A DNA stretch of 64,000 nt, from positions 20,274 to 84,273 of the IMG/VR virus record IMGVR_UViG_3300023116_005108, one strand, 5' to 3'. Origin of the DNA: a virus. Below are positions 36,815-55,084 of this stretch, in pieces. A program made the translations under genes and the position numbers. The notes under the pieces were generated by a model. The model had not been told where the DNA came from. It worked only from the letters and a program-made list of their open reading frames with translations, and did no database searches. The first letter of the stretch is position 1. The number at the start of each line of letters is the position of its first letter.

Positions 36815-37695
36815 AAAATACCGTAGCTAATCATCTAGACGGTGGAGGTTTGGCTTTTGGTCAGTGTCTAACCGCCGTTGGGTGGGTTGGTGGAACCCTA
36901 CCTGAAATGTATGAAGAAGATGGTATGGTTGAACTTTCTATGGCTGATGTAGCAGGAGGTGCAATTGTTACAGGTGCTGGTCTATCAGGAAGAAGACCTA
37001 TGTATATCATAAGATATCAAGGTTTTAACTGGTATAATTGCGTTAGTATATTAAACTATGCCTGTAAAAGTAAGGACATGTGGAATATTCCGTGCCCAAT
37101 TTTTGTGAGGAGTATTGCTATGGAGGGGGCAATTGGTCCAGTAGCTGGTAGCTCCCATCATTCTCTTTATCATAGAATGCCCGGTGTTAAAATCTACTCG
37201 CCAATGACTCCCGGAGAATACGAGCAATGTTATCAGGATTTCATGAAAGATGACGATGTTTTTTATGTTTCTGAACATCGAGGGGCATATAATAATACAG
37301 AGGAACTTGAAGATGTAGACTTTTATGAACCTGACTTTGTATTGTTTCCTATTTCTATTTGCCGATTTGCAGCAATGGAAGCTTCTAGGGAATTATTCAA
37401 AGAAGGTATTAAGGTTGCTGTTTATCATCAAAAAGTTTTAAAGCCATTTGATGTAAATAAGAATTGGGCGAGAGCACTTGATATTGCTGGTCGCGGACTT
37501 GTTCTCGATGATGATTTTCCAGATGGAATAGCTTCAACACTTGCTCAAAAACTAATGCTAGAATCATCAGCTAAGGTATCAACTATGGGTCTGGAAGAAA
37601 GATCTTCAGGATTTGCAAAGCACTTAGACAATCTTCCTCCATCAAAAGAAAAAATTATAAGGTTTATTAAAAATGAAAAGAATAGAATTCGGTGA
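36787..37695 (+). CDS. TPP-dependent enzyme, E1-beta / transketolase C-terminal-like subunit
   Basis: 302 residues. Pyrimidine-binding domain (LAFGQCLTAVGWVGGTL ... MADVAGGAIVTGAGL), HSLYHRMPGVKIYSPMTPGEY, and a C-terminal domain with GLVLDDDFP, as in E1 beta. With the preceding gene makes an alpha/beta TPP enzyme. No E2 or E3 gene is nearby, so it is not a standard dehydrogenase complex. Confidence 0.82.
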   Translation: MAITLRDTIKNTVANHLDGGGLAFGQCLTAVGWVGGTLPEMYEEDGMVELSMADVAGGAIVTGAGLSGRRPMYIIRYQGFNWYNCVSILNYACKSKDMWNIPCPIFVRSIAMEGAIGPVAGSSHHSLYHRMPGVKIYSPMTPGEYEQCYQDFMKDDDVFYVSEHRGAYNNTEELEDVDFYEPDFVLFPISICRFAAMEASRELFKEGIKVAVYHQKVLKPFDVNKNWARALDIAGRGLVLDDDFPDGIASTLAQKLMLESSAKVSTMGLEERSSGFAKHLDNLPPSKEKIIRFIKNEKNRIR

Positions 37696-38806
37696 ATTGA
37701 GAATTAACAATTCGGCAAAAAAGCATGTTCAAGATTGTTTAGATACTAATTGGGCCTCGATGGGTCCAAAAACTAAACTACTTGAAGAAAAATTTGCTGA
37801 ATTGATGGGAACAAAATACGCAGTAGCAACAAGTAGCGGCACTTCGTCAATAGCTGCAATGACTATGGCATTGCCCGAAATATGTAATCGTCCTGTTATT
37901 AGGAATAAAAGCAAAGTAATATGTCCAGCTTTAGCCTTTATAGCCAATACTACAGGTATTGTGTCTGGTGGATTGATTCCTAAATGGGTGGACATCAAGC
38001 CGGAAACTTTAAATATAAATGAGGAATTAATTGAGGATGCTGTTGATGATGATGTCGTTGCGATCTATGCTGTAGGCACTATGGGTAGGCCATCTGAGAT
38101 GGATGCGATTAGAACTATTGCTAAAAAATATGACTTAGTATTGTTTGAAGACGCATGTGAGAACTATGGTAGTAAAATAAATGGAGAGTTTAGCCATAAG
38201 TATGCTATAGGAGGTTGTTCTTCATTTTTTCAGGCTCATCTTGTTCAGGCCGGTGAAGGTTCTTGTATTTATACAGATGATGAAAATCTTCGTGATCTGC
38301 TCATTAGTATTAGATCTCACGGCAGACATCCTAATTCAGCGTATTTTGACCATATAAGATTTGGGAGTAATTTTAAAACAACTGACCTTTGTGCATCTTT
38401 AGCTCTTGGTGCTATTGAGGAATTTCAACAAAATATTTCCGAAAGAAAAGCGATATGGACTGAACTTGTAAAGTTTTCTGAACAATATGCAGATTTAGCT
38501 TGGTTTAGTAGTCAGCCTGATTATATGGAAGTTATGCCTCATGGTTTTAGCATTACAGTAAAGCCAGATTCTAAAAAATCATGTAGAGAACTAGAAAAAC
38601 TGATGACCTCTAATAACATTCACTGGAAAAGAAATTTTGGTTTTTGTGGCAGTCATGCATCATTAAAAGACGTTTTATCCGAACCACAGGGATATAATAA
38701 TGCTGTGTGGTGTGGGAACAATGGACTGCATATTGGTACTCATAGATATATGAATGAAGAAAACATTCAAAGAATTTGTAGAGTTATGAAGGAATTTTTT
38801 GAATGA
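37673..38806 (+). CDS. DegT-family PLP enzyme with His in place of Lys: predicted sugar 3-dehydratase
   Basis: 377 residues. DegT/DnrJ/EryC1 fold: ATSSGTSSIAAM, PLP Asp in LFEDACENYGSK (Asp160), and SSFFQAHLVQAGEG where the PLP lysine position is His189. The known families with His here are ColD (GDP-4-keto-6-deoxymannose 3-dehydratase) and the E1/RfbH 3-dehydrase, which remove the C3 hydroxyl instead of transaminating. No iron-sulfur Cys cluster is evident, so the ColD type fits better. Confidence 0.8.
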   Translation: MKRIEFGELRINNSAKKHVQDCLDTNWASMGPKTKLLEEKFAELMGTKYAVATSSGTSSIAAMTMALPEICNRPVIRNKSKVICPALAFIANTTGIVSGGLIPKWVDIKPETLNINEELIEDAVDDDVVAIYAVGTMGRPSEMDAIRTIAKKYDLVLFEDACENYGSKINGEFSHKYAIGGCSSFFQAHLVQAGEGSCIYTDDENLRDLLISIRSHGRHPNSAYFDHIRFGSNFKTTDLCASLALGAIEEFQQNISERKAIWTELVKFSEQYADLAWFSSQPDYMEVMPHGFSITVKPDSKKSCRELEKLMTSNNIHWKRNFGFCGSHASLKDVLSEPQGYNNAVWCGNNGLHIGTHRYMNEENIQRICRVMKEFFE

Positions 38807-39318
38807 AATTTTTTTTAATAGCGAGTGAACTTGAGCTACCAAATTGTCCGTCTATAGTCGAAGACAGTGTTATTTTTACAGGAATTGGCAAAACGAACGC
38901 CGCTATGTGGGCTACTAAACTATGCACTCAATGGGGTAATAATCTTGATTTGATTGTTAATGTAGGAACCGCTGGAAGTTTTAATGAGGCTTATTCTGGA
39001 ATGCATAAGTGCGGTACTTTTGTAAATCTAGATGGAGATGATTCATTTAATAATGAAAGATATGTCTTTAATAAAGATGGTTTAACTATTGGTTCATCTG
39101 ATTCTTTTGTTGATAATGAAAATCTATATTTAGATAAACCCGATCTCGTAGATATGGAGAGTTTTGCTATTGCTCATGTCTGTCATAATTTTGGTGTTAA
39201 TTTTGTTTGTCATAAATATATTACAGATTATATTGGCTCCAATTCTGTCAATCAATGGCTTGAGTCTGTGAAAAAAGCAGAATGTGAAATATTTAAAATT
39301 ATCTATTCTTATATCTAA
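38803..39318 (+). CDS. Nucleosidase, MTA/SAH nucleosidase-like (short)
   Basis: 171 residues against about 230 for MTAN. Keeps SELELPN (Glu), VNVGTAGSF, VDMESFAIAHVC (Glu) and KYITDYIGSNS (catalytic Asp). Would cleave SAH, methylthioadenosine or 5'-deoxyadenosine, the by-products of the SAM enzymes in this operon. Middle of the domain is shortened. Confidence 0.7.
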   Translation: MKFFLIASELELPNCPSIVEDSVIFTGIGKTNAAMWATKLCTQWGNNLDLIVNVGTAGSFNEAYSGMHKCGTFVNLDGDDSFNNERYVFNKDGLTIGSSDSFVDNENLYLDKPDLVDMESFAIAHVCHNFGVNFVCHKYITDYIGSNSVNQWLESVKKAECEIFKIIYSYI

Positions 39319-39348
39319 TTTTTTTACATGCAATAATAGAGAACTAAT

Positions 39349-40305
39349 ATGAAAATAGTTATTACTGGTGCCGCTGGATATATTGGAAGTAAATTATTCG
39401 ATTTTTTAGTAAAACGCGGTCACAATGTTATAGGTTTTGATAATCTTTTTTATGATCAGGGGACGCTTGTTAGTAAAGTGGCGTGCAATTCTATTGGTGT
39501 ATCAAAATTTTTTGTTGAAGACGTTACCAGTTGGTCTGAAAATTTAAAAGATGCTATAAAAAATGCAGATATTATTATTCCACTTGCCGCACTGGTTGGT
39601 GCTCCGCTATGTGACAAATATCCAGAGCTAACATATAAAATCAACTTTGAATGGTTTTCTAAACTATTGCCGTATCTTAAAGATCAACATATAATTTATC
39701 CAAATACAAACTCTGGTTATGGCTCAACCGGCGAAGAAATTTGTACAGAAGAAACTCCATCTAATCCCTTATCACTTTACGCAAAAACAAAACAAGATTC
39801 TGAAAATTTATTGATGACTTATGAAAAGTCTACCTGTTTTCGTTTAGCTACAGTATTTGGATGGTCTTATCGCCCCAGAACGGATCTTCTTGTTAATAAT
39901 TTAACTAAAACAGCATTAGAAACTGGAAGAATATTCTTGTTTGATGGTCACTTCAGGAGAAACTATATTCATGTAGATGACATAGTTTCAGCTTTTAACT
40001 TTATTATTGATAAAATAACATATAAAAAGAGTGAAGACATACATGGAGTTTTTAATTTAGGAAATGATTCTTTAAATACAACTAAAGAAAATTTAGTTAA
40101 GGAAATATGTTCAATTGTTGGCTCAGATTTTGTAACTCAAGATAATCGTACCGATCCAGATAAAAGAGATTATTTAGTTAGTAGCCAAAAGCTGTACTCT
40201 TTAGGATGGAAACCATCAGTTAGTTTGAGGTTTGGCGTTAATCAAATGGTCAACTTTTATAGATTAATGTCAAAGTCTGACGAACTTCGTTGTAGAAATT
40301 ATTGA
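39349..40305 (+). CDS. NAD-dependent epimerase/dehydratase (extended SDR)
   Basis: 318 residues. NAD site GAAGYIG, catalytic Tyr-x-x-x-Lys in LYAKTKQDSE, RRNYIHVDDIV near 205, and an RGxNM-like end. Acts on NDP-sugars (4,6-dehydratase, 4-epimerase or reductase). Confidence 0.82.
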   Translation: MKIVITGAAGYIGSKLFDFLVKRGHNVIGFDNLFYDQGTLVSKVACNSIGVSKFFVEDVTSWSENLKDAIKNADIIIPLAALVGAPLCDKYPELTYKINFEWFSKLLPYLKDQHIIYPNTNSGYGSTGEEICTEETPSNPLSLYAKTKQDSENLLMTYEKSTCFRLATVFGWSYRPRTDLLVNNLTKTALETGRIFLFDGHFRRNYIHVDDIVSAFNFIIDKITYKKSEDIHGVFNLGNDSLNTTKENLVKEICSIVGSDFVTQDNRTDPDKRDYLVSSQKLYSLGWKPSVSLRFGVNQMVNFYRLMSKSDELRCRNY

Positions 40306-40307
40306 TT

Positions 40308-41276
40308 ATGATTATCAGTAGAACGCCTTTTAGAATATCTTTATTTGGAGGATCTACCGATTATGAATCGTATTTCTCTAAGCACGAATCCTTATTAATC
40401 GGATTCGCTATTAATAAATACTGCTACCTTTCTGTAAGAAAAACTCCATCCATATTTGATTACAAAAGTAAATTATCATATTCAAAAACTGAAATTGTAA
40501 ATAATAATTCAAAAATCAACCATGACGGAGTTAGGGGCTGTCTAGACTTTTTATCTATCAGATATGGCATAGAGCTATCTCATAATGCGGATCTTCCGGC
40601 TCAAACTGGAACTGGATCTTCGTCTGCATTTGTTGTTGGCTTATTAAACTGCTTGCATAGACTGAGTAATAAATATGTCACTAAAAAAGAACTATCCCAA
40701 CAAGCAATAAATGTTGAACGGAATATACTGATGGAGACTGGAGGTATTCAGGATCAAATTTGGTCTGCATATGGAGGTATTAACTCAATATCTATTGAAA
40801 AAAATGGCTTTTTTCATGTCAAGCCATTGCCTATCTGTGAGCATTTTTTGAAAAATTTCTTAGAAAGATCAATCCTAATTTATACGGGCAGCACAAGGCA
40901 TTCTTTTAAAATTGCTAAATCTTACAATATTAATTCTTCCCAAGAGCATAAGCACAAGATTAAAGAATTATCACATTTGGCTTATGAACAATTTCAAGAG
41001 GCTAACATTGAAAATATTGCATCGCTCCTCGACAAATCTTGGAACTATAAAAAACAGATATCTAACTTAATAAGTAATGACCGCATAAACAATTTTTATT
41101 CACAGTTATCGGAAGATGGTATGATTGGCGGAAAATTATTAGGATCTGGCGGTGCAGGTTTCATATTTGGCATATTATCTGATAAAGTGAATAAGAAAGA
41201 GTTTAGGAGAAAATATAAACAAAATTACGTGGATTTTAACATTGACTTTGAAGGATCTAAAATTATAAATGAGTAA
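40308..41276 (+). CDS. GHMP kinase, HddA-like sugar kinase
   Basis: 322 residues from ATG 40308, two bases after the previous stop (TTG 40302 is possible). RTPFRISLFGGSTDYE and the ATP loop PAQTGTGSSSAFVVGLL, plus a late GGKLLGSGGAGF. Closest by eye to D-glycero-D-manno-heptose 7-phosphate kinases, but fucokinase-type is possible. Confidence 0.78.
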   Translation: MIISRTPFRISLFGGSTDYESYFSKHESLLIGFAINKYCYLSVRKTPSIFDYKSKLSYSKTEIVNNNSKINHDGVRGCLDFLSIRYGIELSHNADLPAQTGTGSSSAFVVGLLNCLHRLSNKYVTKKELSQQAINVERNILMETGGIQDQIWSAYGGINSISIEKNGFFHVKPLPICEHFLKNFLERSILIYTGSTRHSFKIAKSYNINSSQEHKHKIKELSHLAYEQFQEANIENIASLLDKSWNYKKQISNLISNDRINNFYSQLSEDGMIGGKLLGSGGAGFIFGILSDKVNKKEFRRKYKQNYVDFNIDFEGSKIINE

Positions 41277-46468: not shown

Positions 46469-46970
46469 CTTTATCTCCATCCATATCCCTAACGAATAAA
46501 ACATACTTTTTAGGTATGTAGACTATAGATATTTTATCCTTGATTAGCCTTAAAATCTGCGAATAATTTTCAGAATAGATATCCATTTTAGGATTTGATG
46601 CATCTGTGAATTTGATTTCACTTATTCCGCATTGATATATCATTTGCAGACAGTCAAGACATGGTATTGCTGTTATATATGCTGTAGCTCCTAGAGTACT
46701 TCTACCAAGTCTTGAACAATTGTAAATAGCATTAGCCTCTGCGTGAATCATGAAAGGATATTTTTGAGGTCTAACCCTTGGTAGTATAGTATCATCAATA
46801 TCCCTGATGAATCCATTATATCCTGTAGATAATGAAGTTTTATCTTTTACAAGGACGCATCCACATTTAGTTTGACTATCATGACTGTTAAAACTCCAAA
46901 GAATTGCTTCTCTGAAGAAAATTTTATCCCACTTAGTTGCTTCCTTTTGGATTTTAATATATTCTTCCAT
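46446..46970 (-). CDS. dCMP deaminase
   Basis: 174 residues from ATG 46970 (GGAG 9 bases upstream). Zinc and catalytic motifs MIHAEANAIYNCS and AIPCLDCLQMIYQCG. Converts dCMP to dUMP, the substrate of ThyX at 56714-57415. Lies directly after the tmRNA terminator. Confidence 0.87.
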   Translation of the reverse strand: MEEYIKIQKEATKWDKIFFREAILWSFNSHDSQTKCGCVLVKDKTSLSTGYNGFIRDIDDTILPRVRPQKYPFMIHAEANAIYNCSRLGRSTLGATAYITAIPCLDCLQMIYQCGISEIKFTDASNPKMDIYSENYSQILRLIKDKISIVYIPKKYVLFVRDMDGDKDVQDQQR

Positions 46971-46992: not shown

Positions 46993-47024
46993 AAAAAATG
47001 CCCGTTTGGATAGCAAGGGCGGGC
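46993..47024 (-). terminator. Rho-independent terminator of the tRNA-tmRNA transcript
   Basis: Minus strand: GCCCG, 15-base loop, CGGGC, A, then TTTTTT. Lies just past the tag stop codon of the tmRNA. Confidence 0.75.
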
Positions 47025-47161
47025 AACCCCCCGTGACTGCCTAAGCAGCCAACGCAAAACTAGGTTTTGCAGTTATTGTCTGTCGATTTTTTAGCTGGCC
47101 CTTCGACAAACCAGCACATGCAGTCATCACCTACGCAACCAGTCGATACCATTACGCCCCC
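47025..47161 (-). ncRNA. ssrA: tmRNA, coding piece (circularly permuted ssrA)
   Basis: 5' end GGGGGCGTAATGG-TATCGACTGG is the conserved 5' half of a tmRNA tRNA-like domain, and its first 7 bases pair with CGCCTCC of the acceptor piece 120 bases upstream (one G-U). A pseudoknot follows: GCTGG/CCAGC with TGTCGA/TCGACA. The tag frame (47070 to 47041) begins at GCA after TAACT and reads AKPSFALAA then TAG. The 3' end was not defined; taken at the terminator. Confidence 0.88.
47041..47070 (-). other. tmRNA proteolysis-tag reading frame
   Basis: Nine codons, AKPSFALAA, and TAG. The ALAA end is the ClpXP-type degron. Resume codon GCA is placed by analogy (A four bases before it, as required in known tmRNAs). 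Confidence 0.8.
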
Positions 47162-47281
47162 GTCAGAAACACACTATCTTACCGTCATAAGTAGTCCGTC
47201 AACTAGATGCTTTGAGTACGTGGTTACATCTAGGAGGATTTGAACCTCACATAGACCGTATTCAACATCCTAGTGTGCTTC
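47162..47281 (-). ncRNA. tmRNA intervening segment with a tRNA-like T-arm
   Basis: 120 bases between the CCA end of the acceptor piece and the 5' end of the coding piece, expected to be removed in processing. It is structured: an outer CACACTA/TAGTGTG stem, a T-arm-like GAGGTTCAAATCCTC, and CTAGATG/CATCTAG flanking TAACCA. Longer and more ordered than a simple spacer. A TTGACG ... TAAGAT pair inside could be a weak internal promoter. Confidence 0.5.
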
Positions 47282-47362
47282 TGGTGGAGGCGGCGAGAAT
47301 CGAACTCGCGTCCTGTGTTGTTTCACTAACAACGTCTACATGTTTATTCCGGCGAACCGGAA
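47282..47362 (-). ncRNA. ssrA: tmRNA, acceptor piece (circularly permuted ssrA)
   Basis: Minus strand: a TTCCGG-TTCG-CCGGAA hairpin, then AACATGTAGACG, hairpin GTTGT/ACAAC, GGACGCGAGTTCGATTCTCGC (T-arm) and CGCCTCCACCA with CCA encoded. This is the 3' part of a tmRNA but lies upstream of the 5' part. ACATGTAGAC pairs with GACTGCATGT of the coding piece (helix P2, one mismatch). Starts one or two bases after tRNA-Asn. Confidence 0.88.
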
Positions 47363-47363
47363 G

Positions 47364-47435
47364 CTCCGAAAATAGGACTCGAACCTATAACCCATCGGTT
47401 AACAGCCGATTGCTCTACCATTGAGCTATTTCGGA
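47364..47435 (-). tRNA. tRNA-Asn (GUU)
   Basis: Acceptor TCCGAAA/TTTCGGA, anticodon loop CTGTTAA, T-loop TTCGAGT. No CCA encoded. Abuts the tmRNA acceptor piece. Confidence 0.93.
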
Positions 47436-47436
47436 T

Positions 47437-47517
47437 TACCGGAGACAGGACTTGAACCTGCACGCCTTGCGGCACTAGATCCTAAATCTAGCGTGTCTGC
47501 CATTTCACCACTCCGGC
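47437..47517 (-). tRNA. tRNA-Leu (UAG)
   Basis: Acceptor GCCGGAG/CTCCGGT, anticodon loop TTTAGGA, long variable arm TGCCGCAAGGCG, T-loop TTCAAGT. No CCA encoded. Confidence 0.93.
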
Positions 47518-47525
47518 ATTACATT

Positions 47526-47593
47526 ACCTCGCAGGGACTTGAACCCCAACTAGCAGAACCAAAATCTGCTGTGCTACCGATTACACCACAAGG
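47526..47593 (-). tRNA. tRNA-Gln (UUG)
   Basis: Acceptor CCTTGTG/TGCGAGG with three G-U pairs, anticodon stem GCAGA/TCTGC, loop TTTTGGT, T-loop TTCAAGT. Rather short (about 68 bases) and no CCA encoded. Confidence 0.85.
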
Positions 47594-47599
47594 TATTAA

Positions 47600-50989: not shown

Positions 50990-51074
50990 TCTCGACAGAG
51001 GGACTTGAACCCTCACTCCCACTACAGGAACCGGATTTTAAGTCCGGTGCGTCTGCCTATTCCGCCATGTCGAG
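50990..51074 (-). tRNA. tRNA-Leu (UAA)
   Basis: Acceptor CTCGACA/TGTCGAG, anticodon stem CCGGA/TCCGG with loop CTTAAAA, variable arm TTCCTGTAGTGGGAGT, T-loop TTCAAGT. No CCA encoded. Confidence 0.93.
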
Positions 51075-51078
51075 TTAA

Positions 51079-51151
51079 TGCTCGCGGTAGGATTCGAACC
51101 CACAATCCGCAGGGTAGAAACCTGCTGCATTATCCGTTATGCTACACGAGC
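51079..51151 (-). tRNA. tRNA-Arg (UCU)
   Basis: Acceptor GCTCGTG/CGCGAGC, anticodon stem GCAGG/CCTGC, loop TTTCTAC, T-loop TTCGAAT. Confidence 0.93.
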
Positions 51152-51156
51152 GTAAG

Positions 51157-51229
51157 TAGGGATGGTGGGAATCGAACCCACGACCAATGCTTTATAAGAA
51201 CACTACTCTTACCACTGAGCTACATCCCC
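51157..51229 (-). tRNA. tRNA-Ile (UAU)
   Basis: Acceptor GGGGATG/CATCCCT, anticodon stem GTGTT/AGCAT, loop CTTATAA, T-loop TTCGATT. The UAU anticodon reads AUA directly, where most bacteria use a lysidine-modified CAU tRNA. Confidence 0.88.
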
Positions 51230-54977: not shown

Positions 54978-55012
54978 TTTAAATTCCTTAACAGGTAATA
55001 AAAAAAATTAGT

Positions 55013-55083
<71 letters not shown>

Positions 55084-55084
55084 T

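Follow-up and report, generated by a model that had tools for sequence, protein, structure and literature searches.

The window, that is, the whole 64,000-nucleotide stretch of viral DNA analysed here, encodes a circularly permuted two-piece tmRNA on its minus strand. ARAGORN calls it in the permuted form (tmRNA*, 47374-46950, minus strand, tag AKPSFALAA), and two Rfam models agree in cmscan searches: RF04321 (tmRNA_permuted) matches 47343-47041 (-) with 87.6 bits (gathering score 47, E 2e-15), and RF01849 (alpha_tmRNA) matches 47362-47036 (-) with 60.9 bits against a cut-off of 50. The original prediction had placed a phage-encoded permuted tmRNA at 47025-47362 and had proposed a permuted covariance model and ARAGORN as checks; its coordinates are correct, both tools report the permuted form, and the strand, which it did not name, is minus. 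ARAGORN probably extends the low end too far, since at 46950 it overlaps the dCMP deaminase gene that follows downstream (ATG near 46970). ARAGORN, Rfam and the placed positions all give the same order, that is, the 3′ piece is encoded first, followed by a spacer and then by the 5′ piece. The tmRNA has a fold z-score of -5.05, and none of 100 shuffled sequences was equally stable. RF04321 has a single match in the 84,273-base virus record, namely this gene. Within the 64-kb window no one-piece tmRNA (RF00023) reached its threshold; for the remaining 20 kb of the record the search covered RF04321 only. The feature is thus confirmed as a genuine permuted two-piece tmRNA.

The mature 3′ piece (47282-47362, minus strand; delimited by RF04321 and RF01849, with the outer end at about 47362 estimated) comprises one P2 strand, the T arm, CGCCUCC and an encoded ACCA, and the mature 5′ piece (47000-47161, minus strand; placed by Rfam, low end estimated) comprises the 5′ strand of the acceptor stem, the other P2 strand, pseudoknot PK1, the tag and 3′ hairpins. 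The structural elements that had been described beforehand were all recovered. The ends pair over 7 bases (GGGGGCG, 47161-47155, with CGCCUCC, 47292-47286) into an acceptor stem with a G3-U70 pair at 47159/47288, the alanine signal, and ACCA follows at 47285-47282. The P2 helix joining the two pieces, ACAUGUAG (47343-47336) with CUGCAUGU (47123-47116), is present in the minimum-free-energy fold. PK1 lies ahead of the tag at 47081-47115 (-), its stems being placed at 47115-47110/47099-47094 and 47108-47103/47086-47081; both sides of the second stem differ in the near-twin gene L020, and the alignment shows that pairing is kept. The tag frame AKPSFALAA with its stop TAG (47041-47070, minus strand) is the one reported by ARAGORN, and the expected tRNA neighbourhood is there as well, with tRNA-Asn, tRNA-Leu and tRNA-Gln genes called by ARAGORN immediately upstream (47363-47595, minus strand).

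The spacer and the near relatives of the gene

Between CCA and GGGGG lies an intervening segment (IVS) of 120 nt (47162-47281, minus strand; fold z-score -3.09, with 1 of 200 shuffled sequences equally stable). Its left arm GAAGCACACTA (47271-47281) and right arm TAGTGTGTTTC (47166-47176), both on the minus strand, form an 11-bp terminal helix, and with ACCA and UGAC (leader TGAC, 47165-47162) standing ahead of these two arms the acceptor stem is lengthened with few interruptions. That is, as the sequence itself establishes, the precursor is able to fold with the acceptor stem continuing through the encoded CCA into the terminal helix of the IVS. Group I introns of tmRNA genes, as described in passages of PMC11915505, are likewise gene sequence missing from the mature RNA, but those introns sit in the T loop and splice, whereas here the T loop is intact and the additional stretch sits between the two mature ends, where no ligation is needed.

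The IVS fits none of the known families. Rfam gave no match inside it, in a search where weaker overlapping matches of the tRNA/tmRNA clan would stay hidden. Against 50,697 phage records, blastn gave a single 32-nt match for the tmRNA, and for the IVS two matches to Arthrobacter phages with an E value of 0.3, which were taken as chance; the IVS of another collected gene, L028, had no match in the same records. A 21-nt piece of the interior was found in three IMG/VR contigs, all of the same phage with the same tmRNA.

Near relatives were collected using nothing but 20 nt of the mature 5′ piece, and ten genes (the window gene and nine others) were compared, with spacer lengths counted after CTCCA. 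Seven of the ten (L008, L012, L015, L018, L020, L021 and L024) have a spacer of only 12-13 nt and no encoded CCA, and the longer spacers measure 70 nt (L017), 174 nt (L010) and, in the window, 123 nt on this count. Most near relatives being without a long IVS, such a segment is therefore not needed for a tmRNA. The near-twin L020 equals the window at 81 of 92 aligned positions in the 3′ piece and upstream and at 53 of 60 positions at the start of the 5′ piece; in place of the CCA and 120 nt of the window, it then has 13 nt that lack a CCA. L020 looks close to an empty-site twin, and the window gene would then be the occupied counterpart. Known structured RNAs were seen on some of the collected contigs: GOLLD RNA, at L010:3077-3542 (-) and L222:736-1203 (+), lies near phage permuted tmRNA genes, and manA RNA lies at L008:1452-1629 (-), on a contig that also carries a related permuted tmRNA.

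A class of capped spacers

The window IVS carries, adjoining CCA and GGGG, the two ends of a wider class with the pattern RAAGCACAC..GTGTGYTTYTGAY. Searching IMG/VR for the left end plus CCA gave 64 stretches, and a search for the right end gave at least 120 matches. Among 62 loci examined (those of the scans, the window and L010), both ends were present in 48; the other 14 looked by eye either like unrelated sequence (nine: L030, L034, L052, L060, L068, L069, L071, L074 and L085) or like tmRNAs with an altered right end (five). With two to three mismatches allowed per end, both ends were found in 129 of the 220 collected sequences, representing at least 97 distinct genes, with eight of the 129 duplicating the gene of the window and one (L092) coming from a bacterial metagenome-assembled genome (MAG). 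IVS length among the 97 ranges from 26 to 224 nt (median 74). ARAGORN calls a permuted tmRNA in 74 of them, and RF04321 matches nine of the other 23 (L121, L143, L053, L131, L028, L042, L043, L145 and L183), the remaining 14 lying outside the Rfam comparison.

Most loci having been collected by end patterns, the constancy of helix positions 1-9 is partly built in. Of 76 distinct end pairs, however, 72 are paired at position 10, by five different combinations (UA 45, CG 11, AU 11, UG 3, GC 2), and 60 at position 11; at position 1 just 49 of the 76 are paired. The covariation at positions 10 and 11 indicates that the terminal helix is an RNA helix.

The same layout occurs in cultured phages, namely Pseudomonas phage PaMx31, Phaeobacter phage MD18, DSS3_MAL1 and Rhodobacter phage RcSimone-Hastad, and with a shorter spacer in Pelagibacter phage Mosig; Stenotrophomonas phage BUCTxx99 has nearly no IVS. 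Among the loci L222 and L223, the permuted tmRNA of MD18 (tag ANTNAAPMEMAIAA) is missing from the deposited annotation, and that of the related DSS3_MAL1 is annotated.

Across 84,980 bacterial and archaeal species, one genome each, the two-ended pattern had no match, and the identical pattern matched 30 of the 87 loci collected by then, which served as a positive control. The left end alone gave 29 matches in the same species collection, with L092 the only tmRNA-like one by context. This locus, on a Rhodobacteraceae MAG contig, is nearly identical to its viral counterpart L067, with 693 of 700 surrounding positions equal. Both L067 and L092 have a capped IVS in which CGCCTCCACCA is all that remains of the tmRNA 3′ piece and the 5′ strand of the acceptor stem is spoiled; a further capped gene in L067 looks intact. 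Permuted tmRNAs scored above the cut-off in 131 of 142 genomes of Shimia's class, the Alphaproteobacteria. Their spacers measured 5-47 nt in the 29 readable loci out of 31 (the 30 best-scoring ones and L226), and up to 232 nt in the 18 that were read among 20 loci with long matches, where the reading of L275 is wrong; the sample consists of well-scoring or long cases from the Alphaproteobacteria rather than random ones. By eye, none of the alphaproteobacterial spacers read starts with RAAGCACAC. The cassette spacer class thus appears to be largely phage-specific and not typical of bacteria. Compared with the permuted tmRNAs modelled by RF04321 and RF01849, the window gene shares the piece order, acceptor stem, P2, PK1 and tag and passes both cut-offs, but differs in having a 120-nt spacer with a conserved terminal helix, against 5-47 nt in the 29 alphaproteobacterial cases and up to 232 nt in some others.

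The original prediction had called a permuted tmRNA in a phage notable. The gene is indeed permuted and phage-borne, but its being notable in itself has weaker support, since the form is already known in phages and further examples are readily found: in passages of PMC9004378, tmRNA is encoded by 402 of 18,146 phage genomes, giving 133 unique structures, among which 53 are two-piece and 50 of those come from marine or aquatic samples, and passages of PMC11915505 count 79 unique phage tmRNA sequences of all forms. Phages with ssrA are also listed in PMC4131195, in passages where the word "permuted" is absent. The window gene is likewise a permuted tmRNA encoded by a phage, and among the known ones that of Mosig also has a capped spacer, with an interior similar to part of family I described below. 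The unusual part is the 120-nt spacer, on which the original prediction made no remark; what looks new is its membership of a group of small structured RNA cassettes that phages appear to exchange among otherwise unrelated copies of this gene. Searches of open PMC papers, including passages of PMC9004378, PMC11915505, PMC4131195 and PMC3978253, gave no description of conserved or exchanged tmRNA spacers.

Inheritance and structure of spacer interiors

Interiors were compared with the ends removed, over 3,570 pairs of distinct genes and with a cut-off of at least 75% identity, which 65 pairs reached. This yielded 16 interior families comprising 51 genes and left 46 of the 97 genes as singletons, the window among them. 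Strongly diverged flanks (upstream <70% and downstream <80% identity) were found in 31 of the 65 similar-interior pairs, the other 34 failing this test; the upstream flank compared includes some sequence beyond the tmRNA. As a baseline, 300 sampled pairs with unlike IVSs average 57% identity on either side. The clearest cases are L079/L146, with IVSs 90% identical and flanks 50% and 54% identical, and L010/L028, with 145 identical nt in the IVS and flanks of 58% and 79%; L033, L040 and L075 have an identical 62-nt interior, and the nearest shared proteins listed for them are 41-93% identical. A search for shared reading frames in 17 pairs, covering flanks of 1-14 kb, found none in four (L079/L146, L047/L142, L178/L183 and L079/L086, where L086 and L047 have only about 3 kb in all) and at least one in 13. 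Some pairs, such as L128/L171 and L132/L218, match on a single side, which crossovers inside the IVS would be expected to produce. Similar interiors with similar flanks or shared genes (34 of 65 and 13 of 17, respectively) are what plain descent predicts. Read at the level of the sequences, these comparisons show that in related genes the spacer interior has had an inheritance of its own, separate from that of the mature tmRNA. For the window's own cassette, exchange is argued from the ends and from L020 only, because its interior is private to contigs of the same phage and belongs to no family.

Family I has a core of the form AUGAAAGAAACC-hairpin-GGGCU, the letters of which are unchanged in all nine distinct members drawn from loci collected by IVS ends only, with one stem pair switching from G-C to C-G; the expression that listed these nine would miss more distant forms. 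Mosig carries a shortened variant with AUGAAGGAAA, in which the second half is absent. A family I pattern without any tmRNA part returned 71 stretches; their loop, which was allowed to vary from 2 to 14 nt, measures 5 nt in 43 of them and 7 nt in the other 28. In 68 of the 71 the copy has tmRNA on both sides, two are cut by the end of the stretch yet agree, and one lies outside tmRNA. Among 15 distinct cores all 113 of 113 cells are paired, in a set where the search pattern itself imposed most of the constant letters, and three of nine pairs are altered on both sides, a count reached in 5 of 500 shuffles and matched by 0 in six slid versions of the alignment. Searched with Rfam at E values up to 1, the spacers of 12 loci gave only tmRNA (weaker overlapping tRNA/tmRNA-clan matches would be hidden). 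The pattern had no match in 398 Pseudomonadota genomes, and the family I model R1 found no additional relatives at E values up to 1 in 84 other loci. A hammerhead-like reading was weighed by eye and given up, since the core appears not to fit the hammerhead consensus. Family I is a covarying RNA that lacks an Rfam match, and its structure is under selection. Its core is absent from the window IVS, to which R1 aligns in the outer stems only (11.5 bits).

Families I and II each occur in tmRNAs of the alpha and the beta model. By Rfam, five of six family I genes fit the beta model (L148, L140, L323, L313 and, barely, L183) and L283 the alpha model; among family II genes L146, L278 and L279 fit the alpha model and L086 the beta model. 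Both families also have a copy elsewhere. At L307:986-1049 (-), family I immediately follows the CCA that ends an intact tRNA-Thr, and there too the arms pair with CACCA; the same record also contains a permuted tmRNA. At L277:8270-8360 (+), one of the nine family II copies has its core outside tRNA and tmRNA, with no Rfam match, and RF04321 had no match in the 116,897-base record. This relative is apparently opened at a different helix and, as a hairpin, circularly permuted.

Processing, possible roles and rival explanations

Taken together, the data suggest, with a probability that we put at roughly two in three, that the window holds a permuted phage tmRNA that looks functional, with a spacer from a class of exchangeable RNA cassettes largely confined to phages. 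By analogy with known permuted tmRNAs, RNase P would cut ahead of GGGGG and other nucleases would trim back to CCA, the IVS being discarded and the two pieces held together by the acceptor stem and P2; alanine would then be added and, with host SmpB, stalled ribosomes could be rescued and proteins tagged AKPSFALAA. From the comparison of genes, the CCA+IVS unit would move from one phage tmRNA gene to another; the likeliest route is recombination at conserved borders, about 17 nt on either side, and the unit may be able to pass around because a removable spacer costs the tmRNA little. Recombination at such borders accounts for the exchange by known phage biology, and no dedicated enzyme is invoked.

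The spacer of permuted tmRNAs is usually regarded as cut out and lost. Since in one family at least the IVS core is an RNA structure under selection, the cassettes probably do something, and since the tmRNA copies and the tRNA-Thr copy both hold CCA in duplex, control of 3′-end maturation is a first guess, namely that cassettes control or assist the maturation of a CCA end kept in duplex. A wider proposal, tentative and in our estimate more doubtful than probable, is that these are mobile, CCA-anchored phage RNA cassettes that sit in the removable spacers of permuted tmRNAs and rarely after the CCA of a tRNA, hold CCA in duplex, pass as units between unrelated phages, and act as switches or small RNAs gating the chargeable tmRNA or tRNA during infection. 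If phages do keep and trade structured RNAs in the spacer, it would be a safe harbour for RNA elements where no splicing is needed, and a simple place for seeking new phage RNAs. It also becomes a testable question whether a phage times the maturation of its tmRNA, and hence ribosome rescue, via the spacer.

Alternatively, the IVS could be inert, its ends persisting for the sake of a longer acceptor stem in processing, and its shared interiors being functionless accidents of recent phage recombination. The wide differences between interior families, the many singletons, the mostly short and unrelated spacers of Alphaproteobacteria and the near relatives that work with 12-13 nt are all consistent with this, but we regard it as unlikely overall, if a serious contender, given that the family I core keeps its letters in nine of nine members, covaries and has one copy after a tRNA CCA, and that family II has a copy outside tmRNA. 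A function in trans is conceivable too, the cassettes acting after release as small RNAs, for instance decoys or tRNA mimics in the course of infection, for which the tmRNA gene merely gives promoter and processing. The copies at L307 and L277 point in that direction, as do T-arm-like hairpins, present in 7 of the 97 IVSs compared with an average of 0.22 and at most 2 in 100 shuffle rounds (the motif was set after seeing cases). That the site can hold unrelated cargo is illustrated by L133 and L160, where the IVS contains a reading frame of 63 aa with a DUF6356 match (46.2 bits, cut-off 24.4); the encoded protein is identical in the two, with 8 of 224 IVS positions differing. The location of 68 of the 71 family I copies within tmRNA, together with the two agreeing ones, suggests instead a role tied to the tmRNA, which makes release in trans rather improbable.

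For the window IVS in particular, a decayed insertion of a tRNA or permuted tRNA might be considered. It contains a T-arm-like hairpin, GAGGTTCAAATCCTC (47234-47248, minus strand; a post hoc motif), with a pairing probability of 0.99 and an adjoining 7-bp stem, CUAGAUG/CAUCUAG; the rotated IVS gives a poor tRNA call of unknown type at ARAGORN -ps80, where none of 200 shuffles does. A precedent comes from passages of PMC11915505, which report a nominally archaeal permuted tmRNA gene with a tRNA-Ala within its intervening sequence, likewise an RNA module in a removable spacer; the tRNA there is intact, whereas ARAGORN calls none in the window IVS at default settings. At settings looser than -ps80 shuffled sequences score too (26 and 53 of 200), and the acceptor-like stem beside the hairpin has a probability of 0, forcing it costing 4.9 kcal/mol (-31.7 versus -36.6), so that a tRNA origin seems improbable. 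Finally, the tmRNA could be a competitor of the host tmRNA or a decaying gene, without use in trans-translation. SmpB (PF01668) had no match in the 84,273-base record or in the longer 118,642-base contig of the same phage, which carries the same tmRNA, and both records may be fragments; trans-translation would therefore need the SmpB of the host, unless the records are incomplete. An SmpB gene in the same genome does not define this kind of tmRNA in phages, since they are able to rely on that of the host. Passages of PMC4131195 describe strong inhibition of tmRNA by a molecule resembling the tag-less tmRNA of phage DS6A. With the tag frame, PK1, P2, acceptor stem and G3-U70 all intact, and host SmpB use expected of phages, competition or decay is nevertheless very improbable here.

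The suggestion that the tmRNA could mark the host lineage proved unsafe, because Melnitz, with a gammaproteobacterial host, carries an alphaproteobacterial-type tmRNA according to passages of PMC9004378. The phage ribonucleotide reductase shares about 55% amino-acid identity with its nearest relatives, those of Pelagibacter phage Mosig and of cyanophages, which is too distant for naming a host. Elsewhere in the window, ARAGORN calls four further tRNA genes (Leu, Arg, Ile and Lys) at 50990-51229 and 55011-55084 (-), and aminotransferase and nucleotide-sugar epimerase genes at 37673-41276 (+) perhaps form a phage surface-sugar module.
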